Source: Bdellovibrionales bacterium RIFOXYD1_FULL_55_31
Lineage (GTDB): Bacteria; Bdellovibrionota; UBA1018
NCBI GenBank assembly: GCA_001770175.1
Contig: MEQK01000076.1
Location: 5,836-48,967 of the forward strand
Reading direction: 5' to 3'
Length of the DNA stretch: 43,132 nucleotides
The notes under the pieces are model-generated. The model was not told the DNA's origin, ran no database searches, and saw only the letters and a program-made list of their open reading frames with translations. Positions 12,951 through 33,791 of the stretch are shown one piece after another (the first letter of the stretch is position 1; the number at the start of each line of letters is the position of its first letter). The position numbers and the translations under genes were made by a program.

Positions 12951-12956
12951 GCGGAC

Positions 12957-12985
12957 TCTATAAGCCAGAAACCGGTCTGACGCAA
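12957..12985 (-). promoter_or_regulatory. promoter TTGCGT-N17-TATAGA for the reverse HTH gene
   Basis: minus strand hexamers; predicted +1 at 12950 is the A of the ATG. Confidence 0.6.
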
Positions 12986-13126
12986 ATTCGCCAGCGCCCC
13001 GCTGATGGTTAATCAGTCGTACAATCAATCTCAAATCCTTGCGAAAACTCCGGAAAATATTTTTTCGGCTCGGACCAGGTAGCAATCTAGCAAGGCGGTG
13101 GACAGTTCGACTCCGGCCGCCCCCGA

Positions 13127-13144
13127 ATATTTTCTGGAAAATAT
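13127..13144. promoter_or_regulatory. palindromic operator candidate ATATTTTC-TG-GAAAATAT
   Basis: perfect 8-bp inverted repeat between divergent genes; related GGAAAATATTTTTTC at 13052. Confidence 0.55.
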
Positions 13145-13168
13145 GTTTCACAGATATTCTAAGCCTCG

Positions 13169-13747: not shown

Positions 13748-13846
13748 GTCGCGGGTCCTTCCCAGGGGTCTCGGAATACGGGTGAAACGGCCGCGATATT
13801 TCTCTAGCGTCAGGTTTGGAATTGGGTAGTCGTTTTAAGGGGATTT

Positions 13847-14365
13847 ATGGGCAAACGAAAGCGAAATGATGAGATCTCAGCACCAAAGTCGAAGCTTTTC
13901 CCGATTGATAAATTGGTCCCCTACGAGAAGAATCCGCGGATCCACCCAGAGCACCAGGTCCAGCAGCTCGTCGACAGCATCACCGAATACGGATTCGTCA
14001 GCCCGCTCGTGATCGATTCAAAATTTCGTGTGATCGCCGGGCACGGCCGGCTCATGGCCGCGAACCGGCTCGGCCTTTCTCACGTCCCATGCGTGATTGT
14101 TGATCACCTCACGGAGGCGCAACGCAGAGCGTACATCATCGCAGACAATCGCCTCGCTCTGAATTCCGATTGGGACATGGATATTTTGAAAGAAGAAGTC
14201 AGAGATCTCGACGCGGACGGCTTCGATATTGATGTTTTAGGGTTCTCGCTCTCAGAAATTGAGGCGCTCACAGTCGATTTGAAATCGGTTCCTCGGGTCA
14301 GGAAGGAAAAGAAGAGCAATGCCGTCGATTGTCCGAGCTGTGGGCATCGCTTCACTATCGAATAG
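13847..14365 (+). CDS. ParB-like nuclease domain protein with C-terminal zinc ribbon
   Basis: KLVPYEKNPRIHPEHQVQQLVDSITEYGFVSPLVID...VIAGHGRLMAANRLGL; CPSCGHRF. Confidence 0.85.
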   Translation: MGKRKRNDEISAPKSKLFPIDKLVPYEKNPRIHPEHQVQQLVDSITEYGFVSPLVIDSKFRVIAGHGRLMAANRLGLSHVPCVIVDHLTEAQRRAYIIADNRLALNSDWDMDILKEEVRDLDADGFDIDVLGFSLSEIEALTVDLKSVPRVRKEKKSNAVDCPSCGHRFTIE

Positions 14366-16748: not shown

Positions 16749-16761
16749 CCAAAAAAAGCGT

Positions 16762-16794
16762 TTGGTCGAAAATCCCGTTCGCCCTCAGTGTGTA
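16762..16794 (+). repeat. 33-bp repeat copy A, candidate late promoter
   Basis: TTGGTCGAAAATCCCGTTCGCCCTCAGTGTGTA, identical to 33307-33339. Confidence 0.8.
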
Positions 16795-16813
16795 CCTAAA
16801 CGCACGAGGACGA

Positions 16814-17023
16814 ATGGCATCCTTTTCCACTGAACAACTCGAAAAGCTCGAAGAGGCGATTGCTCAAGGAGCTCTCCGGGTGAAATACGCAGACAAAGAA
16901 GTTCAGTACCGCTCCCTCGATGAGATGTTTCGGATTCGAGAAATGATGCGCCAGAGTTTGGGGCTGACCGGAGACGGATCCGCGGGCCGTGTTTATCCGA
17001 CAATTTCGAAGGATTTGGAATGA
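16814..17023 (+). CDS. gpW-like head-tail connector
   Basis: FSTEQLEKLEEAIAQGALRVKYADKEVQYRSLDEMFRIREMM. Confidence 0.85.
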   Translation: MASFSTEQLEKLEEAIAQGALRVKYADKEVQYRSLDEMFRIREMMRQSLGLTGDGSAGRVYPTISKDLE

Positions 17024-18501
17024 ACTGGATCGACAGGGTTATAGAGTTCATAAGCCCTCAGGCCGGTTTTGCAAGATATCGGGCGCGACTTGCACAGAGG
17101 GCTCTTTCTGATTTTGAGAGAAAGTACGAGGGCGCTTCTGTTGGACGGCGAACTGACGGCTGGTTTGCCAATTCGACGTCAGCGAATACGGAGAATGCAC
17201 CGGCCCTCAGCCGGTTGAGAAATCGATCGCGCGATCTGGTTCGAAATAACCCATACGCAGCGAGAGCAGTTCAGGCGATTCAAACAAACACAATCGGAAC
17301 TGGGATCATTCCGCAGCCAAGTGGACGAAGCACAAGGGCGACGAAGGATCTGACTTCCGCTTGGGAACGTTGGGCGGAAACCACAGAATGCGATGCGGAC
17401 GGTGTTCTTGATTTCTACGGCATTCAAGGGCTTGTCATGAGGACCATCGCCGAGAGCGGCGAGTGTCTCGTACGTCGCCGATGGCGCCGCTCTTCGGATG
17501 GCCTATCCATACCAGTTCAGCTTCAAGTTCTGGAACCCGATTATATCGACACGACCAAGTCAGGGACGACGGACACAGGTGGATACATCATTCAGGGTAT
17601 CGAGTTCGATTCCATCGGACGTCGCGTTGCTTACTGGCTTTTTCAAGATCATCCAGGCGATGGTTTTTCGGGTAGGTCATTTAGTGCCGAACCGAAGCGC
17701 GTTGACTCTTCTGAGATTTTACATCTATTCCGCCAAGACCGGGCTGGGCAAGTTCGAGGTATTCCGTGGGGAGCGTCGGTTATCATCAAGTTGCGCGATC
17801 TTGATGAGCTCGAGGACGCCCAACTTACAAAACAGAAAACGGCTGCATGTTTTGCCGCCTTCGTTCATGACATCGAAGCGCCTCAGGATCCTACCAAAGC
17901 AGCGAAAAATTTTACGAAAGTGCTGAAGCCAGGCGCGATTGAAATGTTGCCGCCAGGAAAACAAATCACATTTCCATCTGTGCCGTCCGCCTCGGACGAT
18001 GGCCACTCAAGTCGTGTTCTGCACGCGGTTGCGATGGGATTCGGAGTCACCTATGAGCTCATGACAGGTGACTTTGGGAATGTAAATTTCAGCTCTGGTC
18101 GAATGGGGTGGATCGAGTTTCACCGAAACGTCGAGCAGTGGCGATGGCAACTTATAATCCCAAGATTATGTGTCCCGGTTTGGCAATGGTTTTGTGATGC
18201 CGCCTATCTTCAGGGATATCAGAGCCAAGATGCAACGGCCTCATGGACGCCGCCGCGTCGCGAAATGATCGACCCGACACGAGAGATTCCGGCCATTCGA
18301 GACGCCATCAGGTCAGGAGTGAAGACGCTGTCAGAGGCCATTCGAGAACAGGGAAATGATCCCGAACGGCAACTCCACGAATGGAAGAGGGACGCCGAGT
18401 TGCTCGATAAGCTCGGCCTCACATTGGATAGCGATCCGAGAAAGGTATCTCAGGCTGGGGGGGCCCAGAAGAACGAAAGTAACGATGGAGGAAAAGTATG
18501 A
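17020..18501 (+). CDS. portal protein, lambda family
   Basis: RSRDLVRNNPYAARAVQAIQTNTIGTGI...GFGVTYELMTGDFGNVNFSSGRMG. Confidence 0.95.
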   Translation: MNWIDRVIEFISPQAGFARYRARLAQRALSDFERKYEGASVGRRTDGWFANSTSANTENAPALSRLRNRSRDLVRNNPYAARAVQAIQTNTIGTGIIPQPSGRSTRATKDLTSAWERWAETTECDADGVLDFYGIQGLVMRTIAESGECLVRRRWRRSSDGLSIPVQLQVLEPDYIDTTKSGTTDTGGYIIQGIEFDSIGRRVAYWLFQDHPGDGFSGRSFSAEPKRVDSSEILHLFRQDRAGQVRGIPWGASVIIKLRDLDELEDAQLTKQKTAACFAAFVHDIEAPQDPTKAAKNFTKVLKPGAIEMLPPGKQITFPSVPSASDDGHSSRVLHAVAMGFGVTYELMTGDFGNVNFSSGRMGWIEFHRNVEQWRWQLIIPRLCVPVWQWFCDAAYLQGYQSQDATASWTPPRREMIDPTREIPAIRDAIRSGVKTLSEAIREQGNDPERQLHEWKRDAELLDKLGLTLDSDPRKVSQAGGAQKNESNDGGKV

Positions 18502-20510
18502 GCGCGAAAATCAGAGAGCGTACGGTTCAGATGCCTCTGCTCCAAATGCGAGCGGAGTTTTCCCCGGGTTCCTTCAATGCGGAAAAGCGGACGATTGAGC
18601 TCGTATGGTCCGTTGGGAAAAAGGGTCTTCGCGGATTCTACGACCCCTACTATGAAGAGCTCTCGATGAACCCAGCCCATGTTCGCATGGGGAGACTTGA
18701 GTCCGGCAATTCACCATTTATCGACAATCATGAGCGATGGCGTGGAAACCCGGCCGTGCTCGGTCGTATTCTGAGTGGCAAGCTCGAGACAGGCAAAGGC
18801 ACCGCCGTCGTGCGACTTGAGGACGCTGAGAGGCTCGAGAACATCGACGCGAAAGATACGATTCGAAAGATTGAGTCAGGAACCCTTGTTAATTGTTCTG
18901 TCGGGTACACCGTTTACAAGTACCAGCGGCAACCTTCCGTTGAAGGTGAAGAAATTCCAACCTACCTTGCCGTGGATTGGGAACCGACGGAGATCAGCAT
19001 TGTCCCGGTTGGCTTTGACGAGAACGCAGTGGTCCGGGGCAAGAACGAAAAAACCGCACCCTGCGTTTTTATAAACCTTCCCGAAGAGAGGAATAAGGAG
19101 GCACTAATGGACGAGAACGAAAAGAAGGAAATGGAGCGGAAAGCCGCTGAGGATAAGGCCGCTGCTGAGAAAGCGGCTGCCGAAAAGGCTCGAGCCGATG
19201 AAAAGTCGCGCCAGAGCGAAATCCGCTCGATTTGCACGAGGCTTGGGCTCGAAGAGAGCTTTGCGAAGCGCATGATCGACGAAGATAAGCCTCTGGACGA
19301 AGTTCGCAAACTCGTCATTGACGAAAAGGCGAAACAGAGTGCTACGACTGAAATCCGGAGTGCGAATCCGGTTCTGACCTGCGGAGCGGACTCCTCGGAG
19401 AAATTCCGAGACGGTGCGTCTCAGTGGCTCATTCAGCGCGCTGGATCCGGCGTTTCTGCGGCCGTCGAAAAGCATACCAGCAAGAAAGCCGAAGCCGGTG
19501 AGTTCCGTGGGATGTCGCTGGTTGAGCTCGCTCGCGAATCTCTGATTCGTCACGGTGTGAATGTCAAGGGCATGGACAAAATGGCTCTCGTCGGTATGGC
19601 TCTTACGCATCGTGGAGTGGGAACGCAGTCCACCAGCGATTTCGCCATTCTGCTTGAGAACACCATGCACAAGGTGCTCCTTGCGTCGTATGCGACGACG
19701 CCGGACACTTGGTCGCGGTTCTGTAAAAAGGGAAGCGTTTCGGATTTCCGGGCTCACCCCAGATATCGCCGCGGATTCCTCGGCAGGCTGGACAAGGTTG
19801 GTCAGAATGGTGAGTTCAAGAACAAGGCAGTCGCCGATGGAACAAAGGAAAGCGTAACGGCCGAAACCTTTGGTAACATCATCTCTCTCACGAGACAGGC
19901 GATCGTCAATGACGATATGGGTGCATTCTCCGATATGGCGATGCAGATAGGCCGCGCGGGGAAACTCTCCGTCGAAGTGGACGTTTATGCGTTGCTCGCA
20001 CTCAATGCCGGACTCGGTCCCGTTATGAGCGACACGAAGACACTGTTCCATGCCGATCATAAGAATATCGGCGCGGCAACGGCGCTCTCGGTTGCCGGAA
20101 TCGACGTCGACCGCGTGGTCCTCGGCTCTCAGACAGATCCGTCTGGAAACGAGATCTTGGACCTGCGTCCTGCCGTTCTCGTTCTTCCGCTCGCCCTTGG
20201 CGGCGATGCTCGTGTGATCAACGAGGCGCAGTACGATGCCGATACCGCGAACAAGCTGCAGAAACCGAATAAGGTGCGCGGTCTGTTCAAGGATATCGTG
20301 GACACGGCTCGCCTCACCGGGACTCGTCGGTATTTGTTCGCCGACCCGTCGATTGCTCCCGCGATCGAAGTCGCGTTCCTCGATGGTCAGGAAAATCCTT
20401 TCCTCGAGACCGAGCATGGATTCCGGATCGATGGCGTCGAATGGAAGGCCCGGCTCGATTACGGTGTCGCCGGCATTGACTATCGCGGCGCGGTCACCAA
20501 CGCCGGGTAA
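18498..20510 (+). CDS. prohead protease-major capsid protein fusion
   Basis: N-terminal prohead protease (VNCSVGYTVYKY, PTEISIVPVG), Lys/Ala/Glu-rich linker, C-terminal Mu-like/HK97-like capsid region. Confidence 0.88.
   Translation: MSAKIRERTVQMPLLQMRAEFSPGSFNAEKRTIELVWSVGKKGLRGFYDPYYEELSMNPAHVRMGRLESGNSPFIDNHERWRGNPAVLGRILSGKLETGKGTAVVRLEDAERLENIDAKDTIRKIESGTLVNCSVGYTVYKYQRQPSVEGEEIPTYLAVDWEPTEISIVPVGFDENAVVRGKNEKTAPCVFINLPEERNKEALMDENEKKEMERKAAEDKAAAEKAAAEKARADEKSRQSEIRSICTRLGLEESFAKRMIDEDKPLDEVRKLVIDEKAKQSATTEIRSANPVLTCGADSSEKFRDGASQWLIQRAGSGVSAAVEKHTSKKAEAGEFRGMSLVELARESLIRHGVNVKGMDKMALVGMALTHRGVGTQSTSDFAILLENTMHKVLLASYATTPDTWSRFCKKGSVSDFRAHPRYRRGFLGRLDKVGQNGEFKNKAVADGTKESVTAETFGNIISLTRQAIVNDDMGAFSDMAMQIGRAGKLSVEVDVYALLALNAGLGPVMSDTKTLFHADHKNIGAATALSVAGIDVDRVVLGSQTDPSGNEILDLRPAVLVLPLALGGDARVINEAQYDADTANKLQKPNKVRGLFKDIVDTARLTGTRRYLFADPSIAPAIEVAFLDGQENPFLETEHGFRIDGVEWKARLDYGVAGIDYRGAVTNAG
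19107..20510 (+). CDS. nested in-frame scaffold-capsid product
   Basis: AAGGAGG at 19095-19101, 5 nt before in-frame ATG at 19107. Confidence 0.5.
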   Translation: MDENEKKEMERKAAEDKAAAEKAAAEKARADEKSRQSEIRSICTRLGLEESFAKRMIDEDKPLDEVRKLVIDEKAKQSATTEIRSANPVLTCGADSSEKFRDGASQWLIQRAGSGVSAAVEKHTSKKAEAGEFRGMSLVELARESLIRHGVNVKGMDKMALVGMALTHRGVGTQSTSDFAILLENTMHKVLLASYATTPDTWSRFCKKGSVSDFRAHPRYRRGFLGRLDKVGQNGEFKNKAVADGTKESVTAETFGNIISLTRQAIVNDDMGAFSDMAMQIGRAGKLSVEVDVYALLALNAGLGPVMSDTKTLFHADHKNIGAATALSVAGIDVDRVVLGSQTDPSGNEILDLRPAVLVLPLALGGDARVINEAQYDADTANKLQKPNKVRGLFKDIVDTARLTGTRRYLFADPSIAPAIEVAFLDGQENPFLETEHGFRIDGVEWKARLDYGVAGIDYRGAVTNAG

Positions 20511-20533
20511 TCGGATCAAGAACCAAGGACTGG

Positions 20534-20562
20534 AGGCCGCAGGGTAAGGGGCTCTGCGGCCT
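20534..20562 (+). promoter_or_regulatory. 9-bp-stem hairpin between capsid and DUF2190 genes
   Basis: AGGCCGCAG-N11-CTGCGGCCT. Confidence 0.6.
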
Positions 20563-20594
20563 AAGTCCGCAACTGTAATTAGGAGGATTCTTAA

Positions 20595-21185
20595 ATGAAA
20601 AACTACGTTCAGCCCGGCGATGTGATCGAATTCACAGCTGGCGCGGATTATTTAAGTGGAGATCCGGTAGTCATCGGAGAGATGGTGGGTATCTGCACCG
20701 GAGACGTCGCAAATACCACAGTCGGGCGAGCAATCCTGTCTGGCGTGTTTCAGGTAGTTAAGGCCGCTGGCGCAACCTGGAGCAAGGGGCAGAAGCTGTT
20801 CTGGGATAAAACGAACAAGAACTTTACTCCGACCGCATCGTCAGACGCCGACCTTTTGGCGGGGTATGCGTTCGAGAGCGCGCTTCTCGCCGCCACCGTC
20901 GGATACATTAAGCTGATGGGCCCCGGTGTCGCGAAGGTCATTCCGGCCATCGCGGCACACGGAGCTCCGGCCGTAACCGCTACCGTGATCGCCGGTTCAA
21001 ACTTGGTCGCGGTAAATGCGGCTGAGCCGACGAAAGCCGAAGTGGACACGGGTATCGACACTTTGAAGACTGCCGTTGTTACCGCGCTTGATCTTAAGGC
21101 GGATAACGCGGACCTGGTCACCGTCGCGGCGAAGCTCGACGCGGTGATTGCGGCACTCAAAGTTGCCGGCTTGATGGACAACTAA
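20595..21185 (+). CDS. DUF2190-type capsid decoration protein
   Basis: MKNYVQPGDVIEFTAGADYLSGDPVVIGEMVGICTGDVANTT. Confidence 0.85.
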   Translation: MKNYVQPGDVIEFTAGADYLSGDPVVIGEMVGICTGDVANTTVGRAILSGVFQVVKAAGATWSKGQKLFWDKTNKNFTPTASSDADLLAGYAFESALLAATVGYIKLMGPGVAKVIPAIAAHGAPAVTATVIAGSNLVAVNAAEPTKAEVDTGIDTLKTAVVTALDLKADNADLVTVAAKLDAVIAALKVAGLMDN

Positions 21186-21222
21186 GGAGATCCGGGCGGG
21201 GCGCAAGGCCCCGCCCACTCTT

Positions 21223-21534
21223 ATGGACTGGTCGACGCTTTCAGATGGAGTTTTGAGCCGGGCACTGAATACGTTCGGAACTCCCGTTTCATACACTCCA
21301 AACGGAGGAGATGAAATTCAGATCTCCGGAGTCTTTTCGAACGCTCACATATTGGTTGAGGTGGGCGGGGTTCCTCAGTCAATGACCGCCCCGACTCTCG
21401 GGATCCGGTTGGCAGATCTGCCGGCAAAGCCGACCAAAGATGATCAGATCACAATCAAAGGTTTGAACTATCGAATTACCGATTCTCAGGAGGATGGTGA
21501 GGGCGGAACAACCCTTATTCTCAATCAAGTATGA
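21223..21534 (+). CDS. head-tail joining protein
   Basis: size/position and FII-like C-terminus ITIKGLNYRITDSQEDGEGGTTLILNQV. Confidence 0.65.
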   Translation: MDWSTLSDGVLSRALNTFGTPVSYTPNGGDEIQISGVFSNAHILVEVGGVPQSMTAPTLGIRLADLPAKPTKDDQITIKGLNYRITDSQEDGEGGTTLILNQV

Positions 21535-21947
21535 CGCATCACCGAACGAAGATCCGCGAGGCAGTCGTCGACCTACTTAAAGGCGCCACGTCTGCCGGCA
21601 TGAACGTTTTTCCGAGTCGGATTGGTCCACTCTGGAATATGCCGCTTCCGCTAATTCTGATCTATCTTCGCGACGAGACAGTCAGCCCGATATCATCGCT
21701 TCCGAAACCGCGAGAGCGAAAGCCGCAGCTCGCGATCGAAGTTCGGGCAAATGCCGCCGATGAAACCGCCGAAGCAACTCTCGACAGCATTGCGGCAGAA
21801 ATTGAACAGATCATGGATGCGAATCCAAGGCTGAGGGGAACGGTTCAGAGTTCCGGATTTCAAAGCACAGAAATGGATTTATCGGCGATTGGAGATAAAC
21901 CGATCGCTGCTGCACGCCTGACCTATGGGGTCACTTATGAAGAATGA
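21531..21947 (+). CDS. gpU-like tail terminator
   Basis: IREAVVDLLKG...VFPSRIGPLWNMPLPLILIYLRDE. Confidence 0.65.
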   Translation: MTHHRTKIREAVVDLLKGATSAGMNVFPSRIGPLWNMPLPLILIYLRDETVSPISSLPKPRERKPQLAIEVRANAADETAEATLDSIAAEIEQIMDANPRLRGTVQSSGFQSTEMDLSAIGDKPIAAARLTYGVTYEE

Positions 21948-21987
21948 ATTCAATGGACGGAGTCCTTAAAACGAAAGGGGAATAGCT

Positions 21988-22866
21988 ATGTTGTCCAATC
22001 CACGAATATTTTATGGGGTCTACTCGGTGACTCCGTACAGCCGCACCACCGGTGAGCCATATAGTACGGCGAAGGTCGTTGGCGAGGCGGCGGTCGCTTT
22101 GTCTGGAGAAACGAACAAACTGTTCGGGGGAGCCTCGAAATTTCCTTATGCGATTGAGGACGGTCCGATCAACTCCGATATTTCGCTGAAACTGAAAGAG
22201 TATCCGGACTTTCTGTTCGAGCTCTTCTTGGGAAAAAAGCCCACTACCGCAGCGGTTGACGCGGCAGGCGCGGTTACGGCAATCACGAACGTTAAGGGGG
22301 TAAGCGTTGTTGCCGCGACTGGTATTGCGTCTGCAACAGTTAAGGCAGCCAGTAAGACCGACCTAAAATTCACGAAGTACATCGTTAAAGCGACCGACGC
22401 CACGCACGTTGATGTTTATGCCATGAGCGACATCGATTTCGCGCGCGGAACGGACAAAGCATTCGAAAATGACGCCCTCAAAATCACAGCGGCTCCGCTT
22501 GCGATCGCCCAGGGAGTGCCGACCGAAATCCCAGGGTTTGGGCTGGAACTCACCGGCGGGGCCGGGATTATTGCCCTCGTCGCCGGCGACACGGCCGTTT
22601 TCGAAGTGAAGCCTCCTTCGACGTCTTCGATGAGCGTTCGGATTGGAGGTGCCGCGGATCTGTATCCTGAGTTCGGGCTGATTCTGATGGCTCAACAAAG
22701 GAGCAATGGCGAAATGTGTGAAATGGATATTTTCCGAGCGAAGGGGATTGGATTGCCAATTTCTTTTGCCGAAAAGGCCTATTCTGAAGCAGAAATCAAG
22801 GTCCAGGCGTTCTATGATGCAGCGAAGAGTGGTGTATTCGATCTCCGCTGGATCCAGACGAGCTGA
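21988..22866 (+). CDS. major tail protein
   Basis: position between gpU and tail chaperone; 292 aa. Confidence 0.65.
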   Translation: MLSNPRIFYGVYSVTPYSRTTGEPYSTAKVVGEAAVALSGETNKLFGGASKFPYAIEDGPINSDISLKLKEYPDFLFELFLGKKPTTAAVDAAGAVTAITNVKGVSVVAATGIASATVKAASKTDLKFTKYIVKATDATHVDVYAMSDIDFARGTDKAFENDALKITAAPLAIAQGVPTEIPGFGLELTGGAGIIALVAGDTAVFEVKPPSTSSMSVRIGGAADLYPEFGLILMAQQRSNGEMCEMDIFRAKGIGLPISFAEKAYSEAEIKVQAFYDAAKSGVFDLRWIQTS

Positions 22867-22889
22867 TCTGCTCCGACCAAAATGAAAAC

Positions 22890-22925
22890 AAAGGGCCTCA
22901 GCCGGTTTCGGGTGGGGCCCTTTTT
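22890..22925. terminator. rho-independent terminator, bidirectional
   Basis: AAAGGGCC...GGCCCTTTTT; lies between convergent genes. Confidence 0.8.
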
Positions 22926-23101
22926 ATCAGCACCCTTCGACGACAATTCAGGGCCGAATAGACGAGCCATACGCTTTCTTTTCCATTTGCATACAGTCGA
23001 GCAAGGGTGCGGATCCTGTTCTTTTCCGCTAGAGTGACTCGAAATCTACAGAACAAGGTCTTCGGATTCTTTGATCGCGGCCGTCCGGCTTTACGTTTCA
23101 T
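22898..23101 (-). CDS. small basic DNA-binding-like protein (moron)
   Basis: MKRKAGRPRSKNPKTLFCRFRVTLAEKNRIRTLARLYANGKESVWLVYSALNCRRRVLIKRAPPETG; only reverse gene inside the structural operon. Confidence 0.6.
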   Translation of the reverse strand: MKRKAGRPRSKNPKTLFCRFRVTLAEKNRIRTLARLYANGKESVWLVYSALNCRRRVLIKRAPPETG

Positions 23102-23145
23102 CCGAATAATGTGTCACTGAAACTCATTTTTCTAGCAGTATTTTC

Positions 23146-23178
23146 TTGGTGAAAAATAGCGTTCGCGCTCAGGCTCGA
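23146..23178 (+). repeat. 33-bp repeat copy C (diverged), candidate late promoter
   Basis: TTGGTGAAAAATAGCGTTCGCGCTCAGGCTCGA, 24/33 identical to copies A and B. Confidence 0.6.
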
Positions 23179-23182
23179 CTTT

Positions 23183-23689
23183 ATGAGGCCCATTAAACTT
23201 GAGGAACTCGTTCCTCTTCCCGGCGAATTCTACCTTCGCGCAACCCAGAAGACATATCACCTCCGTCCGGTCAGCATCGAAGACCGGGTTTGGATCACGA
23301 GCAAATATGGCTCTGAATTGCAGCAGATATTCAGAGAGGTGAGGGCAAAGGAAATCGCAGCGATAGCCTTTCATCAGCTCACTGATAAGGACAAGGCCGA
23401 TTTCAAAAAGAAGACGGTCGAAATCGTGGACGAAGAGGGCAACACGAAAGAGACGGAGCTCGGCGGAGTCGTGGTCTTAAGGATGCTCATTCAGGGAAAT
23501 GACGAGATTACCGCGGTCCTAACTGCGCTCCTCCACACGATCGGGATCTCAGAACCCCTCATTGAAGAAATGGCGGCGGACGCTGATTCAGAACTGGCTC
23601 AAAAAAAAAACGAGAATGTGACTGGGGAGAGGTCTTTGACATCATTGCCAGCGAATATGGATGGAGCTTCGACCAAATCCGTAGGCTGA
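23183..23689 (+). CDS. tail assembly chaperone (G-like)
   Basis: position before tape measure; ends in slippery region. Confidence 0.75.
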   Translation: MRPIKLEELVPLPGEFYLRATQKTYHLRPVSIEDRVWITSKYGSELQQIFREVRAKEIAAIAFHQLTDKDKADFKKKTVEIVDEEGNTKETELGGVVVLRMLIQGNDEITAVLTALLHTIGISEPLIEEMAADADSELAQKKNENVTGERSLTSLPANMDGASTKSVG

Positions 23690-23901
23690 CATTGAGGGAG
23701 GTTCGAATTGCATTGGATAATATCGGGACCAGAACGCACCAGAAAATGCGCTTCGACGCCGGCCTGCACGGTTTTACTCTTTCGGAAAACACGAGCGGGA
23801 ACAAACCAGTGAGCCTTACCCCTCGGCAAAAGCAAATTCTGGACACTGCTCTATCAGATACCCTGGCACGCAAGCGGGCTGAAGCGAGGTTGAATGGCTG
23901 A
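23183..23901 (+). CDS. frameshifted tail chaperone (G-GT-like)
   Basis: -1 shift at A10 (23601-23610) continues as KRECDWGEVFDIIASEYGWSFDQIRRLTLREVRIALDNIGTRTHQKMRF... to 23901. Confidence 0.8.
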
Positions 23902-26125
23902 TCTCGTCATTCGGATTTCTGGGAAAATTGACGACTTCGACAAGGCCATCGGAGAGGTTCAAGACAAGACCGACGGTTTGGAGTCGAAGCTCTCGACTAT
24001 CGCTAAGACCTCAGCAATCGCTTTCGCGGCGCTCTCGGGCGAGGTCCTTTTCGCCGCCAAGGCCTTTGGAGAGTCTGAGGAGACAGCCCGGCGCCTCACT
24101 CTCGCCATGCGGAACCAGGGAATATACAGCAAGGAACTCGAGGACCAGTACAACTCTACCGCGGAAGCCATTCAGAATCTGACCGGCATCGATGACGACG
24201 CCATAAAGAGCGGGATGGCAATGCTGCAAAGCATGATCGGTCAGACAGAGATATCGAAAGAACTCACACAGGCTGTTGTCGACCTTTCTGCCGAGGACGG
24301 AAATCTGAAGGGTGCTTTTGAGGCAGTCGGAAGGGCGATTGATGGAAATGTAAAAGGGCTGAAGAGTTACAGCATCGTGATCGACGCCAATCTTTCTCAG
24401 CAAGAGAGAATGGAAAAGATAATCGAGATCGTAAATCAGCGATATGCCGACCAGGGGGCTGCTGCAAACAAGGGCATCTCCGGGGTGAGGGGGCTCCAAA
24501 CTGCGCTCGGGAACCTCCAAGAAGACATTGGTGCCAGATTCGCCCCCGCACTGGGGCAAGCAATCAAGTCACTCACGGACTTTTTCAATACCGTCCGTCA
24601 AAACCAGGCCATGGTCGGTTTCATTGCGGATAACATCAAGGTGGGAATTGTCCTCTCTGGGCTCGGGGTCTCGCTCGCCACAGCGGGCGTCGCATTTCTA
24701 AAGCTCAAGCAGGCAATTGAGCTCTCGTCGATAGCGATGAGAATTTTTGGCACGTCTTCAAAAGCTGCGCTGATCACGTCCGGAATCGGGCTTGCCGTTA
24801 TCGCCCTTGGCGAGGCGTTCATTTATTTCTCAAACAAGGCTGAAGCCGGCACACAGAAGGCAAGCAAAGCGATCACGGACCATTCAGAGAGCATCAAGAA
24901 GCTTCGGTCCGAAATCGAAGCTCTTCAGAGGACGATGCCAGACACTGGTGGCAAGGAATCGTATCAGGTCGACTACAGAACTCAGCAGATGGCGAAAAGC
25001 ATACAGGCCCAGCTTGAGATGAAGCGCCAGCAGCTCGCCGAAGAGGAACGATTGCAAGCCGAGTTCGACCAGAACCAAGCAAAAAAATCGATGGGCGACG
25101 CGGCAGAACAGGAGCGTAGGGCGAAGAATCAACGTCTCATCGATGCAAATCGCGCTCAGAACGAGCTCATGAAACTTGAAGCCCAGAACGCATCGGCTGC
25201 GATGATCTCGCTCAAGAAGCAAGAAGCTGATCTCCTCGTAAAAATCGAAGATGAGAAATATGCAAAGACTCGCGATCAGATGCTTTCTCGCGTTCAAGAG
25301 CTCCGGCAGCTCCAGGATGAGCAGCAGCTCATCGATCGTGAGCAAACCGCCGCTTTTAACGAGCAGATTTTAGCTGACAACGAGGAGTTTCAGGCCCTGA
25401 CCACGGAGCAAAAACAAAACTTCCTCCTCCAAAATCAAGCGGCCTTACAGTCTGAGCTCCTGGTCGACGGGACTGTCCGTCAAGATGCTGCGAAACGGCG
25501 AATGTTGGATCAAATCGCCGCCAATAACCAGTTCCTTCTGGAGCAGCAGAAATACGGGACCGCGTACGCGACCATCAACAAGGTAATGCATTCCGAAGTC
25601 TACAAGGGGTCCAAACAGGCATTTGGGGAACTCGCGGAATTGCAGACCAGCAGTAATGCGACTCTAAAATCAATCGGAAAGGCTGCCGCGATCGCGAACA
25701 TCATAATCAAGACGGCCGAGTCGGCCATGAATATCTACGCTGGATTTGCCACGATTCCGATCGTCGGGCCAGTGCTCGGCGCGGCCGGCGCCGCTGCTGC
25801 TGCCCTATTCGGAGCCGAACAATTGGGCAAGGTCACTGCGGCTGCAAAGGGCGGCCTGATCACCGGCGGAATCAGGGGGGTTGATAGCGTGCCGGTTCTG
25901 GCGCAAGCGGGAGAACTGGTCACTCCGAGGTCTAACTATGAAGAGGTCATCGGATCCGTCCGAGCTCAAAGAGAGGCTGAGAAGCTCGGCATGAACGCGG
26001 CCGTAGGAGCAGAATCCGGCGAGCCGATCAATATTGTTCTTACTCTGAGAAATAACCTGATCGAGTTCGTGGAGGCCGGGATCGTAGAGAGACGGAATTT
26101 AAACCTTTCAATTCAAGGCGCGTAG
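23894..26125 (+). CDS. tape measure protein
   Basis: 743 aa, coiled-coil rich, C-terminal AAKGGLITGGIRGVDSVPVLAQAGELVTP. Confidence 0.9.
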   Translation: MADLVIRISGKIDDFDKAIGEVQDKTDGLESKLSTIAKTSAIAFAALSGEVLFAAKAFGESEETARRLTLAMRNQGIYSKELEDQYNSTAEAIQNLTGIDDDAIKSGMAMLQSMIGQTEISKELTQAVVDLSAEDGNLKGAFEAVGRAIDGNVKGLKSYSIVIDANLSQQERMEKIIEIVNQRYADQGAAANKGISGVRGLQTALGNLQEDIGARFAPALGQAIKSLTDFFNTVRQNQAMVGFIADNIKVGIVLSGLGVSLATAGVAFLKLKQAIELSSIAMRIFGTSSKAALITSGIGLAVIALGEAFIYFSNKAEAGTQKASKAITDHSESIKKLRSEIEALQRTMPDTGGKESYQVDYRTQQMAKSIQAQLEMKRQQLAEEERLQAEFDQNQAKKSMGDAAEQERRAKNQRLIDANRAQNELMKLEAQNASAAMISLKKQEADLLVKIEDEKYAKTRDQMLSRVQELRQLQDEQQLIDREQTAAFNEQILADNEEFQALTTEQKQNFLLQNQAALQSELLVDGTVRQDAAKRRMLDQIAANNQFLLEQQKYGTAYATINKVMHSEVYKGSKQAFGELAELQTSSNATLKSIGKAAAIANIIIKTAESAMNIYAGFATIPIVGPVLGAAGAAAAALFGAEQLGKVTAAAKGGLITGGIRGVDSVPVLAQAGELVTPRSNYEEVIGSVRAQREAEKLGMNAAVGAESGEPINIVLTLRNNLIEFVEAGIVERRNLNLSIQGA

Positions 26126-26128
26126 AAA

Positions 26129-26932
26129 ATGCCAAGTCAAATCATCGTCTTCAAAAAGAACATCTGCGATTACGGAAATTCGGAGGTTGTTCTTTCCGCG
26201 AGCGCGGCAGGTGAGTTCGTGAACTATTTACGGGACCGGTCAAACCGCACTGGATGGATGACGACCGGCAGCTCAGATGCTGAGCAAGTCACTTTGACCG
26301 CAGACTTCGGCGATACGAGGGACTTCGATTCTTTGCTCTTGGTCAAGCAGAACTTCAAAAGTTACTCGGCTCAATACGAGGATCCCGTAACCGAGCAAAT
26401 GGTGGATTTCAGCACCCCGATAAATGTCCTGAACAATCAGGATGAGGTCGCTTATCACCATTTTCAAAAAGTCGCGTCTAAAAAGCTCGAAATCAAGATC
26501 AACGGGACGATGATCCCGAACAGCGAAAAACGGATGTGTCAGTTGATCGCGACCGAACTGCGCGGCCAGTTTCAAGCTTGGCCAGTAATCAAAGATCCAA
26601 CACATTCCAGGAACAGAACCAAAACCAAGATGCTTTCCGGGAAGCAGAGCGTCCGAGAAAACGTTGGAGGAACCTCTTTCAAATTGAAGGTAAAAATTCT
26701 GAAGAATCAGGCTGATATTGATCTGGTCGAGAGCATGTACGACTCGAGTGAGGGATTCTTGGTTTGGCCATGCGGCGGCGACAGCTCTCAATTTATTTCA
26801 TCAATCAAGGGTTACAGGAAGGAAGATATCTTCCTGATGAAGTGTGAAAACGAGTACGAGTCCGAACGCTACGGCGGATTCTATCAGTCCGGAATCGAGC
26901 TTGGGATGAATTTAGCGGAGGTTGTAGACTGA
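26129..26932 (+). CDS. distal tail protein
   Basis: position after TMP; ATGA-type packing. Confidence 0.5.
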   Translation: MPSQIIVFKKNICDYGNSEVVLSASAAGEFVNYLRDRSNRTGWMTTGSSDAEQVTLTADFGDTRDFDSLLLVKQNFKSYSAQYEDPVTEQMVDFSTPINVLNNQDEVAYHHFQKVASKKLEIKINGTMIPNSEKRMCQLIATELRGQFQAWPVIKDPTHSRNRTKTKMLSGKQSVRENVGGTSFKLKVKILKNQADIDLVESMYDSSEGFLVWPCGGDSSQFISSIKGYRKEDIFLMKCENEYESERYGGFYQSGIELGMNLAEVVD

Positions 26933-28161
26933 TGGCTCTATTCAGAGTCTACATCCGACCCTTTGACGACGACGGAAATTACACATCATGGGTGGAGATT
27001 TCGAAGTATGTGTCGGCTCGAGCCCTCTCGGCTCTCGAGCAATCAATCGACTCTTCAGATTACCAGCTTGGTGTCTTTAGATATCCGAACTTCAATCTAA
27101 CTTTGGATAACCGAGACGGATCCTTCTCGGACGTTGGTGGCGCTCAAACAATATTCAGATATAAGCGCAGTGGTAGCCAAATTAAGGTGACGTTTTGTGA
27201 ACGGGAGTTCCCGCCCCTTTGTGGGTTCATGATTTGTGGAGATCCCGAGTCCGCAATGCTCTGGACCGAATTGACTGTTTTCAAGGGATTGCTGAACGAC
27301 GAGAGCTGCACACAATCAATCGCTGACGACACGATTACTTTCAACGTGCTTGGATTCGAATCCGAATTCTCGAGGGCTATCGTGCCGTTCGGGACCGTTC
27401 ACAATGGGGACCTGACCTCAGCTGTAATATTCAACTGTCTCAATCAGGATCAGATCACGAATCTGCTGACGGTCGATCAGGCGAACATCAGCGTAGGGAT
27501 TGATCAGCAAATCGACAGTATTGCCAGTCTCCAGAACAAAACCGTCAAAGAAGGACTGGACAAACTTTTATTGGCCACGAACAGCGTTCTCTTCATCGAG
27601 AACGACACAATCTATATTTCGGCCCGAACTCCCACAGCGGAGGTGAAATCGACATTCTATGGTCAGGCTTCGGCGCTCGGGCCAGAGAATATTCAGAATC
27701 TTTTCGATGTGAAGAATGGTCTGAGCCGAACCTTTAATTTCTTCTCTTGGAAGGATGCTCCGGCCGCCATGGTTACTGATCCTACCTCTACCACGAAATA
27801 CGGAATCAGAAAGAAGGAGCTTGATCTCGACTTTTTCGAAATAGCTCAAAAGCAGGTCAACATTCTCACGGCACTTCGAAATGAGTTTTCGACACCGAAG
27901 CAGGAGCTGTCGGTCACGATGCCGGCAACCCCTATCACCGTAGGGATTCGAGTTCTTGACCGGATCGCCATTGATTACCCGACTGTTCTAATACCAGCGG
28001 AGTCCGAAGTTCCTGTTTGTGGCGCCGCGGAGTTTGACGTCGCGGTTATGCCAGACGCGGCATGGAGCTTTTCTTTGGACACTGACACGCATTTCAAGGT
28101 CATTAGCAAAAAAGTGAATCCAGGTGCGTTGACCGTCGATTTCAGGTTGAGGGAGATTTAG
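26932..28161 (+). CDS. tail hub/baseplate protein
   Basis: FRVYIRPFDDDGNYTSWVEISKYV...; position. Confidence 0.5.
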   Translation: MALFRVYIRPFDDDGNYTSWVEISKYVSARALSALEQSIDSSDYQLGVFRYPNFNLTLDNRDGSFSDVGGAQTIFRYKRSGSQIKVTFCEREFPPLCGFMICGDPESAMLWTELTVFKGLLNDESCTQSIADDTITFNVLGFESEFSRAIVPFGTVHNGDLTSAVIFNCLNQDQITNLLTVDQANISVGIDQQIDSIASLQNKTVKEGLDKLLLATNSVLFIENDTIYISARTPTAEVKSTFYGQASALGPENIQNLFDVKNGLSRTFNFFSWKDAPAAMVTDPTSTTKYGIRKKELDLDFFEIAQKQVNILTALRNEFSTPKQELSVTMPATPITVGIRVLDRIAIDYPTVLIPAESEVPVCGAAEFDVAVMPDAAWSFSLDTDTHFKVISKKVNPGALTVDFRLREI

Positions 28162-28812
28162 ATGAGCACAAATAGGCTGAAGCTCAGAATTGACGGGCAG
28201 CCGATGGACGTGAGCTGGTTCAACTCAATCAAGGAGGCGATTTCCGGGGCACTCGTTCCGAGGCATTTTGAAACGAGTTTACCGACTGCAGAAGCCGCAA
28301 ACCTCGGCTCCCCAACTTGGCGATGGAAACGGATTTATAGAAGGGCTGGTGGCCTTTATGCCGGATGCATTAAGGCTAAATACGACTACGCCGGTGCCGT
28401 CCTTATCGAACAGGGGTGGATGAGGTGTGACGGCCGGATTGTGAGCCAGGCCAATTACGATGCCGAGCACGGAGCTGGATCATGGGCCGCATACATCGGC
28501 ACGAGCCCGCTTCAGGGAAAGTACCTTCCAAATTTTGCGACCACGTACATAGGCCACAAGCCAGGCGCAAAGCCGACCGGAGATGTTCCATTCGTCCCGA
28601 CTGGGTCGAACATGTTCGACTTCGAACACGCACACCCGCAGACCACATCGGACACGCCTAATCCAAATATGGGAAAAAATCTTGCGATGTACGAAGCGAG
28701 AAATACTCCACCGGATCATCAGCATACGATGAACTGGACGAATGCGTTAGTCGGGGAAAAGGTAATCTCACCAGAAGCGCTGGCTGTAAAAATATTCATG
28801 AGGATTATATGA
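28162..28812 (+). CDS. tail collar-like fibre protein, paralogue 1
   Basis: QGWMRCDGRIVSQANYDAEHGAGSWAAYIGTSPLQGKYLPN; His motifs. Confidence 0.75.
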   Translation: MSTNRLKLRIDGQPMDVSWFNSIKEAISGALVPRHFETSLPTAEAANLGSPTWRWKRIYRRAGGLYAGCIKAKYDYAGAVLIEQGWMRCDGRIVSQANYDAEHGAGSWAAYIGTSPLQGKYLPNFATTYIGHKPGAKPTGDVPFVPTGSNMFDFEHAHPQTTSDTPNPNMGKNLAMYEARNTPPDHQHTMNWTNALVGEKVISPEALAVKIFMRII

Positions 28813-29441
28813 GCGCCGAGGATCTGATTACGAGCTTCGGAAAGTACGCCACCGCGGCCCTCTTTAACCGAGTTCGTAGTATTCTTTCTGGAGATATCTT
28901 GCCCAGAAACTTGCTAGGGCAAGTTCAGGACTGCGCCGGGAGCCTAGGAGCTGAGAATTTTGAATATTTGAAAGCACATGTACGGGCAGGAGATCTTTTT
29001 CCAGGCGCGTTCCTCACATCCTTCGACGCGAACTCAGCACCACAGGGATACATGGAATGCGATGGCCGGATCATCAATAAAGAAAACTACGATGCCGAGC
29101 ACGGGGCTGGAACATGGGAGACCTACATCGGAAGCTCGGTTCTCGAAGGAAGATATCTTCCAAATCTAAACGATCTGTATACGGTTGGCGGCGACACACA
29201 AGAAGGAACGGCGCCGATCACGACTGTAGGGAATCCGGGCCACCAGGTCGACTTATCGCACACCCATTCGGGGGTTACCGGACCGTCTACTCTTTATGAA
29301 AACGTTCAGAGAAGTACCGGAAGTGTCGTTTCTGGATACGGCCACACGCACAATTTTTCTACTGGGCAGGCAGACATTCCTCTCAGCTTAACGCTTATTC
29401 CAAAAACGCTGACCGCCAGAACCTTCCTGAGGATCATATGA
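28809..29441 (+). CDS. tail collar-like fibre protein, paralogue 2
   Basis: QGYMECDGRIINKENYDAEHGAGTWETYIGSSVLEGRYLPN. Confidence 0.75.
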   Translation: MSAEDLITSFGKYATAALFNRVRSILSGDILPRNLLGQVQDCAGSLGAENFEYLKAHVRAGDLFPGAFLTSFDANSAPQGYMECDGRIINKENYDAEHGAGTWETYIGSSVLEGRYLPNLNDLYTVGGDTQEGTAPITTVGNPGHQVDLSHTHSGVTGPSTLYENVQRSTGSVVSGYGHTHNFSTGQADIPLSLTLIPKTLTARTFLRII

Positions 29442-30094
29442 GTTCTGACTCGCTACCAACCAGAAAGCCGAAGCAGACGATGCGATCCACATGGATGCAT
29501 GCGATCAATCAGACACTTATCGGCGATCTCGTTCCGAGGAATCCATCTGGAGTTGCGCAATCGATCGCGGGAGCGCTTGGAACGGTTTTCTATCCCTTTA
29601 AAAAGATGTTCATCGTCGCGGGTGAGTATGGCCCGGGGGATATTATTTGGGCTTACGATTTCGCAGGCATGATTCCGCCTGGCCAAGGGTGGATGAAGAT
29701 GGACGGGCGAATAGTCAGCGAAGCAAACTATGATGCAGAACACGGAGCGGGATCGTGGGCTGAATACGCTGCTGCCAGTCCGCTCGTCGGGAAATACCTT
29801 CCTAACATGACAGGAAAGTATCTAATTGGAACGTCGGGGTCCACGCAAAATGGATTAGTTCCTATTACCTATGCTGGCAATCCGGCGCATAAGGTCAATT
29901 TGGCTCACACGCACACAGCCATCAATGTGAGCACGGTCGCTCGATCCGGCACGAACTATTTTTCCATGGATAACACTGCTGGGTTTCCGGACTGGGACCA
30001 CAACCACTCGGCGGTGGCAAACTCCGCCCTGTCCGCAGAGCAGGTCATTCAGCCTGAGTCAATCGCGGTGAGATATTACATGAGGGTCATATGA
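29438..30094 (+). CDS. tail collar-like fibre protein, paralogue 3
   Basis: QGWMKMDGRIVSEANYDAEHGAGSWAEYAAASPLVGKYLPN. Confidence 0.75.
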   Translation: MSSDSLPTRKPKQTMRSTWMHAINQTLIGDLVPRNPSGVAQSIAGALGTVFYPFKKMFIVAGEYGPGDIIWAYDFAGMIPPGQGWMKMDGRIVSEANYDAEHGAGSWAEYAAASPLVGKYLPNMTGKYLIGTSGSTQNGLVPITYAGNPAHKVNLAHTHTAINVSTVARSGTNYFSMDNTAGFPDWDHNHSAVANSALSAEQVIQPESIAVRYYMRVI

Positions 30095-30555
30095 AATTCT
30101 CGCAAGTACTAGTTAGGGAAAATTCTAAGGCGGTCGAAGCGGCATGGTTCAATGATGTTCGAGCTTCTGGATTGGCCATCGAGAATACCTTAGGGGCAGG
30201 ATACGTCGAAGAAAAGGAGGCAGAACTCCTCAATAATCAGGCGGCTCCGGCCGACCTTTCGAGTTACCTCAATTTCGATACGACGAGCGTTCGGGCAGCC
30301 TTCATCGATTTTTTCGCTTATCGAAATAGCACGGTTTCAGGAGAGCGGGTTGGAGGTGGAAGACTGATTGCGATTTTTCGCCCTATCTCACTGACCTGGG
30401 AAATCAGCCCACCAATCGGACTTTGGGGGGATGATCTTGGCGTAAGTTTTTCAATGAGCGGGTCAAAGGTGCAATACGCGTCCGACCCCATGGATCCGGC
30501 CGGATACGGCGGAAAGATACGTTTCAAAGCCACGACTTTTGGTCTGTTTACGTGA
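30091..30555 (+). CDS. hypothetical tail-associated protein
   Basis: ATGA overlap with paralogue 3. Confidence 0.5.
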   Translation: MKFSQVLVRENSKAVEAAWFNDVRASGLAIENTLGAGYVEEKEAELLNNQAAPADLSSYLNFDTTSVRAAFIDFFAYRNSTVSGERVGGGRLIAIFRPISLTWEISPPIGLWGDDLGVSFSMSGSKVQYASDPMDPAGYGGKIRFKATTFGLFT

Positions 30556-30565
30556 GGAGAGTTCT

Positions 30566-32863
30566 ATGAAGTACTCGTTTTGTATTTTGCTCTGTTGGAT
30601 TTTGATCGGTAGCCAGGCCCTCGGTGCAAGCGCCGTCCGTCAGGACGATCTGATTATCAAGAACACTCTTAAGGTCGGGGGGGCGAGTGCGCCCAATTCG
30701 AAATCGGCCCTTGAGGTCGAAAGCACCACAAAAGGATTCCTACCCCCTCGGATGACGACGACACAGCGTAATGCGATTACAAGTCCGCCTGCGGGCCTGA
30801 GCGTATTCAATACGACGACAAACAAGGCAACGCATTTTGACGGGGCTTCGTGGCGCGAGGGATCGACGATTGATGGCACCGAGACGCTTTCAAATAAATC
30901 TCTTTCGGCACCACAGATTTTGGATTTCGCGGACTTGACAGAGCAGGCGGACGTAGCCTCGAATCCAGGTTCTGGAAAACGTCGAATGTATGTGAAAACA
31001 GATGGAAAGGCGTATTTACGGAACTCTTCTGGAGCTGAAACGGCGCTAGGGAGCGGAACGGGACCTTCTGGACCCTCGAAAAACTTTGTTGTGAATCCTT
31101 CGGCGGCTTCGGATACCACAACGTGGGGCGGCGTAAACGTATCCTTTGATAGGGACGTTACCGTTGGAAACAAAATCAACGGTGTCGCCTCGTTTGCTCT
31201 CACCTCAGCGACTCATACCGCGATGTTCATATCGGACGCGATGACGCTTGATGACGACACCACGGGAAATTGCGAAGCCCAGATACTCTACAAGGGTGAC
31301 GCGAGTAAGTGGAAGTTCGCGCTTTGGAACGCCGCTGAACTCCAGTCCGTGGCGCTCACCAACGAAACCGGCTGGCGCATGGCCTCGTTCAACTACCCGT
31401 GTACGACTGGCTTAACTCTTCGGGTAATTTCCACGGCGGCAAGTCCCGCGAACATCAACGTCGGTGGATTTTACTGGGGGAAGGCGACAAACATCGGGAG
31501 TGTCGCGCAAGCCGAATACATTGGAAGCATCAAGTTTTCAGGCAGCGGAAACGCCTGCGTGTGGTCAGCAGGAATTTCAACGTCCTTCGCGAATTTCACA
31601 CAGGATGCTGCGTGCGACACCACCGTTGACGGGAATGCGGCAGTTTTGGGGTCAAAGCGTCCTGGCATGACCATGACCAATCTGAAACCCGGTCGATATG
31701 TCGCGTATTTTACGGGATTTTTTGGGAGCACTGCTACAGGAAAGCAAGCGTACTTGAGATTGTTCGATGGCACTACGCAATGGGGTGGGGTCATCTCTGC
31801 CATGAGTAGTGCCGGTACTAACTATGCTCCATCGACTGCGGTATGGGAAACGACGTATAATGCCCCACAGGCAAGCGTTTCAATCGATATTCAAGGCATG
31901 ATTGACTCGGGCGGGGGGATACAGCTCGGCGGTGGTGCCGTCGATGACGTATTATCCGTTTACCGATTCCCCACGACCGCAGAGCAGGCGGTTAGTGTGG
32001 ACACTACGGCTCAAAGCTGGTCGGGGTATCACGATAATACTTGCTCATGGGCGAGGACGAACACCGCTCTCGGTGATCCTGCGGCAGACGCGACATGTGC
32101 CTTTGCGCAGAGGACGAATACCAATTTTGGAACGGTGGCTAGTGCGATTTCCGGCTCCGACAAACTCCCTGGCATTACATTCTCCCCCACTCAGGTCGGA
32201 AAGTATGACGTAAAGGTCGTATTCTTAGCTCAAGGGCCTGGAAACACGAACACGGCTTTTCAGCTTACGGATGGAACAACCGTTGTGGCTCAGACGCAGT
32301 ATTTCTTCGACACTGCGAATCAGCTCAAGTCGATAACTCTCTCCGGTCAATACGTTGCTAGTCCGACGGCTCCTGTGACTTTGAAGTTGCAAACGTCTGC
32401 CACGGCGAACACCGTCACAATTGGAGGAGGATCAAACACGACTGCCATTGCTGAGTGGAGCATCGTCGCCATAAACCAGGGGTTTCCGGCCCCGCTTCTC
32501 GTCGGAGGCGTAGTAAATTCAAGCTCCGGTGTTAGTCGGCCTGAGGCTATGACGCTCACCCCGAATGGAGCCGCCGGGTCATGCACGTACACGCAGCACG
32601 GCGACTGGATTTCCTCGGTAAGCGGGTCGGCGGTTGGGGATTGCACAGTAACGATAAAGGCTGGGGTCTTCAGCGCAGCACCGAAATGCATCGTAACGTC
32701 GAATAACAGCTTTACCACTCCCGACCGTTTCCACTTCAGTACGTCGGTGTTTAGCAAAACATCCACAAGCTTCCGAATTCAATCGAGTGTTCTCGACGAC
32801 ACAAGCGGGACCGTGTCTGGGGACGGCAGTCCGGTGGATATTCTTTGTTTTGGTCCAAGGTAA
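30566..32863 (+). CDS. large secreted fibre/adhesin-like protein with N-terminal signal peptide
   Basis: MKYSFCILLCWILIGSQALGASA; SALEVESTTKGFLPPRMTTTQRNAI...; two similar beta-rich domains. Confidence 0.65.
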   Translation: MKYSFCILLCWILIGSQALGASAVRQDDLIIKNTLKVGGASAPNSKSALEVESTTKGFLPPRMTTTQRNAITSPPAGLSVFNTTTNKATHFDGASWREGSTIDGTETLSNKSLSAPQILDFADLTEQADVASNPGSGKRRMYVKTDGKAYLRNSSGAETALGSGTGPSGPSKNFVVNPSAASDTTTWGGVNVSFDRDVTVGNKINGVASFALTSATHTAMFISDAMTLDDDTTGNCEAQILYKGDASKWKFALWNAAELQSVALTNETGWRMASFNYPCTTGLTLRVISTAASPANINVGGFYWGKATNIGSVAQAEYIGSIKFSGSGNACVWSAGISTSFANFTQDAACDTTVDGNAAVLGSKRPGMTMTNLKPGRYVAYFTGFFGSTATGKQAYLRLFDGTTQWGGVISAMSSAGTNYAPSTAVWETTYNAPQASVSIDIQGMIDSGGGIQLGGGAVDDVLSVYRFPTTAEQAVSVDTTAQSWSGYHDNTCSWARTNTALGDPAADATCAFAQRTNTNFGTVASAISGSDKLPGITFSPTQVGKYDVKVVFLAQGPGNTNTAFQLTDGTTVVAQTQYFFDTANQLKSITLSGQYVASPTAPVTLKLQTSATANTVTIGGGSNTTAIAEWSIVAINQGFPAPLLVGGVVNSSSGVSRPEAMTLTPNGAAGSCTYTQHGDWISSVSGSAVGDCTVTIKAGVFSAAPKCIVTSNNSFTTPDRFHFSTSVFSKTSTSFRIQSSVLDDTSGTVSGDGSPVDILCFGPR

Positions 32864-32877
32864 AAAAGGGGGATTTT

Positions 32878-33021
32878 ATGAAACTGATTCTGGTTTTGGT
32901 TGGGTTGGTGGTGCTTTCGGGTTGTGCAACCGCCGTTCACATGATCGACAAATGCAAAGACGTGCAGGGGCGCCCTGTGCAGGGCGACATCTGTACTGGC
33001 GAGTTCTTAAAGAAGCTGTGA
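32878..33021 (+). CDS. 47-aa lipoprotein (o-spanin-like candidate)
   Basis: MKLILVLVGLVVLSGCATAVHMIDKCKDVQGRPVQGDICTGEFLKKL; lipobox LSGC; AAAAAGGGGG SD. Confidence 0.65.
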   Translation: MKLILVLVGLVVLSGCATAVHMIDKCKDVQGRPVQGDICTGEFLKKL

Positions 33022-33024
33022 CTC

Positions 33025-33288
33025 ATGACTGCAGAAAATGCCAGGCGGGCTGCGGCCATTACGATGAATACCCTCATTCCATTGGGTTCTCTCGGCGCGA
33101 TTGCTGGAGTGGTTTGGTGGGCTTCTGGTCTGAATAAGACTGTCGAGGCCCACTCGATCGAGCTCGTCGCCGTGAAGGCGGCGCAGCGGGAGCACGAGAA
33201 AGTCCAGGCGGCGAAACTAGACTCAATGATTGAGGTTCTTGGTCAGATCAAAACAGACTTGGCTGTAATCAAAGCCCGCCTTAGATAA
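33025..33288 (+). CDS. one-TM coiled-coil protein (i-spanin/holin-like candidate)
   Basis: TLIPLGSLGAIAGVVWWASGL then charged helix. Confidence 0.5.
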   Translation: MTAENARRAAAITMNTLIPLGSLGAIAGVVWWASGLNKTVEAHSIELVAVKAAQREHEKVQAAKLDSMIEVLGQIKTDLAVIKARLR

Positions 33289-33306
33289 GTGCCACGAAAA
33301 TTCCGC

Positions 33307-33339
33307 TTGGTCGAAAATCCCGTTCGCCCTCAGTGTGTA
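33307..33339 (+). repeat. 33-bp repeat copy B, candidate late promoter
   Basis: identical to 16762-16794, 17 nt before the holin-like ATG. Confidence 0.8.
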
Positions 33340-33356
33340 TCGCAGAGGGAATCCCA

Positions 33357-33791
33357 ATGAAAAATCTTTGTTCTCGTTTGTTCTTGTTCATGTTCATCAT
33401 GACGTCTTTTCTATTCAGCCTGATCGCTTTCGCGGTGGATGTCACGGATCCGCTTTCGACCGTCGACTTTTTCACCCAGCTGATCGCGCTTCTCGGTGGT
33501 GTGAAGGGTGCCACTGGGCTCGGAATTGCGATCTTTGCGGTCCAAATTTTGATGATGTTCTTTCGAACTGAGATGGCGAACTTCGCCGGTAAATGGAAGC
33601 TCACAATTGTTCTGGGGCTCTCTCTCATGTTCGGAATTATGGCCTCGATCAATGCCGGGACGACTTGGTTCGCGGCGATCTTCAACAGTGTTACGATCAC
33701 TGCCATTCAGGTTTTCGCGAACCAGCTTTACAAGCAGCTGACGGAAAAGAACGAGACGCCTCCGGCGACTCCTGTCTCGGCGCTGAGGTAG
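33357..33791 (+). CDS. holin-like multi-TM protein
   Basis: several hydrophobic segments; position before endolysin. Confidence 0.55.
   Translation: MKNLCSRLFLFMFIMTSFLFSLIAFAVDVTDPLSTVDFFTQLIALLGGVKGATGLGIAIFAVQILMMFFRTEMANFAGKWKLTIVLGLSLMFGIMASINAGTTWFAAIFNSVTITAIQVFANQLYKQLTEKNETPPATPVSALR

Follow-up and report, generated by a model that had tools for sequence, protein, structure and literature searches.

The window, by which we mean the whole 43,132-nucleotide stretch of DNA that was analysed, is a prophage with an integrase, and three copies of a non-coding repeat stand at the heads of its three late blocks: gpW/portal/capsid, tail and holin (lysis). With moderate confidence we interpret the three copies as late promoters of this WO-like prophage, most likely read by a sigma-70-family protein encoded at 7917-8570. 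The repeat itself is confirmed and very likely functional; that transcription starts at the motif, that it does so late and that the sigma protein recognises the motif are steps that we infer. Phage-specific late promoters had already been proposed in a sequence-only reading of this DNA. They are still the best explanation, because the motif occurs nowhere in the host outside the prophage, heads late blocks, lies behind a terminator at the second site, lacks a sigma-70 consensus and is accompanied by a phage sigma gene; another phage with the same core was looked for and not found.

The copies of the repeat and the first gene after each are as follows.

16762-16794, + strand: copy 1 of the repeat, in the TerL/gpW gap; an exact 33-mer with the core present
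16814-17023, + strand: gene for a gpW-like head-tail adaptor that directly follows copy 1 (phrog_2545, 2.9e-16)
23146-23178, + strand: copy 2, diverged (24/33 positions identical, 22/22 core positions kept), in the gap before the chaperone-position gene
23183-23689, + strand: chaperone-position gene that directly follows copy 2, named by gene order before the tape-measure-like gene; no family match
33307-33339, + strand: copy 3, identical to copy 1, in the gap before the holin-like gene
33357-33791, + strand: holin-like gene that directly follows copy 3; its product has three hydrophobic segments and matches Phage_holin_5_2 weakly (E 0.009)

Both exact copies and the diverged one were found as the sequence-only reading had described them, and shuffled sequence is expected to contain the 33-mer 0 times. 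The core of the repeat, TTGGT-N2-AAAAT-N2-CGTTCGC-N-CTCAG, has 22 fixed positions and occurs exactly three times in the window and 0 times in shuffled sequence; written as TTGGTNNAAAATNNCGTTCGCNCTCAG, it matches copy 2 at 23146-23172 with 0 mismatches. No fourth copy with up to three mismatches was found in the window, and when a matrix built from the copies was scanned over it, the next best match was only at the level of shuffles. Copy 2 differs from copy 1 at all five N positions and at four of the last six bases. Since the 22 core positions are kept while the N positions and the tail vary, the core appears to be under selection. The same pattern bears on the idea that the repeat is a neutral boundary or recombination element, copied between module junctions and without a role in transcription: the copies do sit at module boundaries, and copies 1 and 3 are identical over 33 bp amid unrelated flanks, but the way in which copy 2 varies around an intact core speaks against it, and we consider it very improbable.

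Each copy is intergenic, lying in a gap between + strand genes (16749-16813, 22867-23182 and 33289-33356) and on the same strand as they do. The distances from the end of the repeat to the likely start codon are 19, 4 and 17 nt for copies 1, 2 and 3, counted to ATG 16814 (gpW), ATG 23183 and ATG 33357, which bears out the earlier description of copies 4-19 nt before starts. GTG 16790 and GTG 33333 are mechanical ORF starts inside the repeat; the ATG codons at 16814 and 33357 are likelier, and the former is backed by the gpW start of a relative, L103 (MSHARFTPDQL). In a check for A/T-rich UP elements, copy 2 alone exceeded the 95th percentile.

The case for a phage signal had been made dependent on the motif not being scattered across the host independently of phage genes. 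This holds: in the whole host genome, with up to three mismatches allowed, the core is found at the three prophage sites only, as a low-copy conserved motif upstream of late genes that is absent elsewhere in the host. The 368 other genomes of the phylum gave 11 core matches against 16 for a reversed control pattern, and these 11 were judged to be chance. Exact matches in IMG/VR are one 42.9-kb record and one 2-kb fragment, which are the same phage since their flanks equal those of the window. In viral contigs other than those of the window's own phage, looser core patterns matched singly and here and there, never twice in one contig, and these matches were also put down to chance. A core match with two mismatches in G250, a genome that has a homologue of the sigma protein, was judged a coincidence: it is on a separate contig, within a chromosomal-type ORF. 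Across IMG/VR, viral contigs, phylum genomes and related prophages, no independent phage with the same core was found. The expectation that related prophages would carry this core at the same junctions thus failed for the sequence and held for the principle only, in a single relative (L103, see below).

The prophage belongs with the WO-like (Symbioviridae-type) phages: its TerL is 57-59% identical to terminases of Wolbachia phage WO and is followed by gpW and portal genes, both recognised by family matches. Late-gene labels without a family match were assigned by gene order. Upstream of copy 1 are a neck-like gene (13169), a ParB-like gene (13847), TerS (14378) and TerL (14832). The head block after copy 1 comprises gpW, portal (17020), a capsid-position ORF (18498), cement (20595), head closure (21223), tail terminator (21531) and a tail-tube-position ORF (21988), and is followed by a transcription terminator that precedes copy 2. 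The tail block runs from the gene at 23183 through a tape-measure-like gene (23894-26125) and further tail-block ORFs up to 33288; copy 3 and the holin-like gene (33357 onward) come next. Two names in the sequence-only reading thus hold in part: 'tail chaperone' by position, with no family to confirm it, and 'holin-like' by its hydrophobic segments, with a weak family match.

Several further features of the prophage were noted. An imperfect direct repeat of at least ~80 bp, with its copies 42.6 kb apart at 1-84 and 42589-42672, lies near the integrase gene (41326-42447) and probably represents the att sites. The early region encodes a PHP-domain protein (10248-10883; PF02811, 9e-8). Strong hairpins with no clear T run follow the capsid-position and cement genes (20528-20570 and 21193-21218), and are perhaps attenuators or mRNA stabilisers.

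The terminator ahead of the tail block is the following feature.

22889-22927, + strand: strong intrinsic terminator, located after the tail-tube-like gene and before copy 2, with a folding energy of -26.8 kcal/mol (z -4.6) and a T run after it

With this terminator upstream of copy 2, the tail block needs a new transcription start, unless antitermination acts. A scan of the three gaps for sigma-70-like promoters, within or after the motif, gave no match at any site and no -10 element that could be recognised at a constant spacing from the motif, under a score threshold that a weak -10 would escape. This agrees with the earlier statement that the repeat is not a normal sigma-70 promoter: the motif differs from the host sigma-70 consensus, and its conserved core is one long contiguous stretch, whereas promoters usually have separate -35 and -10 elements. 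Compared by eye with sigma-54, ECF (GGAAC/CGTC) and sigma-28 consensus sequences taken from general knowledge, the motif was a misfit in spacing or in sequence.

The result of the scan also weighs on an arrangement in which host sigma-70 holoenzyme is recruited by a phage activator bound to the motif, and the sigma-like gene serves something else. Mu C and P2 Ogr are phage activators of late promoters that act with the host sigma-70 holoenzyme. The prophage encodes several HTH regulators that could do the same, the candidates being a D5-like protein and the Fis-type HTH proteins at 84-479, 3033-3443 and 9352-9837, and at the TerL/gpW junction of L103 an operator array accompanies a sigma-70-like promoter. 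However, each of the window's sites is without the sigma-70-like promoter on which such an activator would act, and the motif is neither palindromic nor iterated; we regard this arrangement as unlikely, though credible.

At the level of RNA, an Rfam scan gave nothing near the gathering score. Copy 1 folds well (z -4.4), pairing with bases of its own flanks; copies 2 and 3 fold no better than shuffles, and there is no fold common to the copies, so the signal is more likely DNA than RNA. A leader-RNA element that acts on translation or mRNA processing would suit the placement of all copies 4-19 nt upstream of start codons and the folding of copy 1. It is at odds with the folding of the other two copies, with the lack of an Rfam family and with a core that contains no Shine-Dalgarno sequence, and we give it very little credence. 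Between copy 2 and ATG 23183 there are just 4-10 nt, without a Shine-Dalgarno, and a message that started there would be nearly leaderless.

For the late-promoter reading, the candidate reader of the motif and its possible partner are encoded by two adjacent genes.

7917-8570, + strand: sigma-70-family protein, candidate reader of the repeat (phrog_351 'RNA polymerase sigma factor', 6e-6; TIGR02937 sigma70-ECF, 2.1e-5, an NCBIfam score under the curated cutoff)
8522-9421, + strand: D5-like DNA-binding regulator, candidate partner of the sigma (phrog_323, T5 D5-like, 1.4e-13, with only ~100 of 319 profile positions matching)

That the prophage encodes a sigma-70-family protein is shown by these family matches and by a profile of three phage sigma homologues, which retrieves host proteins that we assigned, by reading their sequences, as RpoH- and FliA-type sigma factors. 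Homologues of the protein are found in G250:C89 (31% identical) and in the IMG/VR phage L224 (41%). An AlphaFold model made without homologues had a pLDDT of 51, and a PDB search with that model was uninformative. The sigma/D5-like pair is present in three phages or prophages: at 7917-9421 of the window, at G250:C89:59389-61261 (L218/L219) and at L224:10007-11382, where it stands directly before the terminase genes. A D5-like partner, 33% identical, closely adjoins the G250 sigma homologue, a weaker one lies beside that of L224, and such a partner is kept in G369 as it is in G250. When 369 genomes of the phylum were searched with the D5-like profile, matches came only from G250 and from the genome that holds the window, which are also the two with strong sigma matches, and tblastn of both proteins against 50,697 phage records gave no match. 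In the sigma-bearing phages G369 and G370 (homologues 32-41% identical; the records are fragments) the core was not found, and no convincing repeat peculiar to these phages was found either, a related motif in phages with a homologous sigma being expected for close relatives and not a defining requirement of the class. Repeats at 18751 and 24216 of G369 were dropped, as they are apparently in coding sequence (portal start, short ORF).

Taken as late promoters, the three copies would each mark the start of a late transcription unit, for the head, tail and lysis blocks on one strand. The sigma, perhaps with the D5-like protein, would be made earlier in the phage cycle; host RNA polymerase core would be directed to the motif by a phage factor, most likely this sigma, and the adjacent D5-like DNA-binding protein would perhaps assist. 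If this is true, one small prophage supplies both halves of a switch, motif and sigma factor, and the sigma/D5-like pair would show how related uncultured phages may turn on their structural genes. A broader proposal is tentative and, to us, rather doubtful: a two-protein late switch in a little-studied phage group, made up of an ECF-like sigma and a D5-like partner whose genes immediately precede those for packaging. It would act on a long contiguous 27-bp promoter, placed at the same junctions in these phages but with a sequence that evolved separately in each. Among the papers searched, none uses the phrase 'late promoter' together with phage WO and Wolbachia.

The relative L103 is a prophage contig from the same host family, with a TerL 59% identical to that of the window. 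It has a 114-nt non-coding repeat in two copies, 82% identical, at 13789-13902 and 17077-17190, that is, before the neck-like gene and at the TerL/gpW junction, and unrelated in sequence to the window's repeat. Each copy contains a sigma-70-like promoter, TTGAAC-N17-GATAAT, together with palindromes 21 bp apart; by its sequence, the module resembles a usual sigma-70 promoter equipped with operators, and a search of L103's genome with the window's sigma protein gave no match. A duplicated control module at the TerL/gpW junction of a second phage illustrates rather than proves the principle, the phages being two only. In the group as a whole this junction does not usually hold a promoter, since most of the listed TerL relatives have little or no TerL/gpW gap. 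The nearest relative of the window's phage, IMGVR 3300020057_001093, has a TerL that is 72% identical, and its record breaks off within TerL. In WO-like phages of Betaproteobacteria, a ATGAACGCGCTGTT...GAAGCCAAGTCAATTC-like stretch occurs several times upstream of TerL (L034:7566-9334, L072:7522-9370, L020, L131, L155 and L163); these stretches may be gene starts in common.

In the window, a Cro/C1-type HTH gene on the - strand (12720-13151; PF13443, 2.3e-6) faces away from the neck-like gene, and palindromic GGAAAATATTTT-type sequences at 13049-13064 and 13126-13148 (region 12720-13168, at the gap of the two genes) are possible operators of a further late promoter. This regulator could also be the repressor in a stoperator-like system, in which a prophage repressor binds asymmetric intergenic sites and blocks late transcription in the lysogen. 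The copies are indeed asymmetric, intergenic and all oriented with transcription. Yet there are three of them, at late blocks only, against more than 20 in L5, and none lies close to the early genes or to the regulator gene, as an operator should; we think this role improbable.

Known systems share parts of this picture. The stoperators of mycobacteriophage L5 and its relatives are, like the copies here, asymmetric, intergenic and oriented with transcription, but they are 13-mers that include operators in promoter regions, whereas the window's motif has 27 bp (PMC9283540). The start-associated sequence (SAS) of Cluster K mycobacteriophages is likewise a repeated asymmetric sequence just before start codons; it contains AGGAG in ribosome-binding position and lies 3-7 bp from the starts of mainly non-structural genes (PMC3203893), whereas the window's repeat has no AGGAG, ends 19, 4 and 17 nt from the starts and precedes structural and lysis genes. 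The L103 module shares with the window its place at the TerL/gpW junction and its duplication before two late genes, and differs in its unrelated sequence, its palindromic operators, its sigma-70-like promoter and the lack of a sigma-protein match. The protein at 8522-9421 resembles the T5 D5-like regulators by profile match, and its role in the window would be that of a candidate. Promoters of phage sigma factors are typically well conserved, few per genome and found by pairwise comparison of intergenic regions (PMC4331800). Those of phiEco32 and Salmonella phage 7-11 belong to lytic phages, with a consensus of ~9 bp, tAATGTAtA, in phiEco32, whereas the window is a prophage with an unrelated 27-bp core known from sequence alone; like the window, these phages encode a sigma factor and carry a few conserved intergenic motifs before structural genes (PMC4331800). 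The window's motif is thus probably a further case of a known class, phage-specific late promoters, with the candidate sigma in the same prophage.
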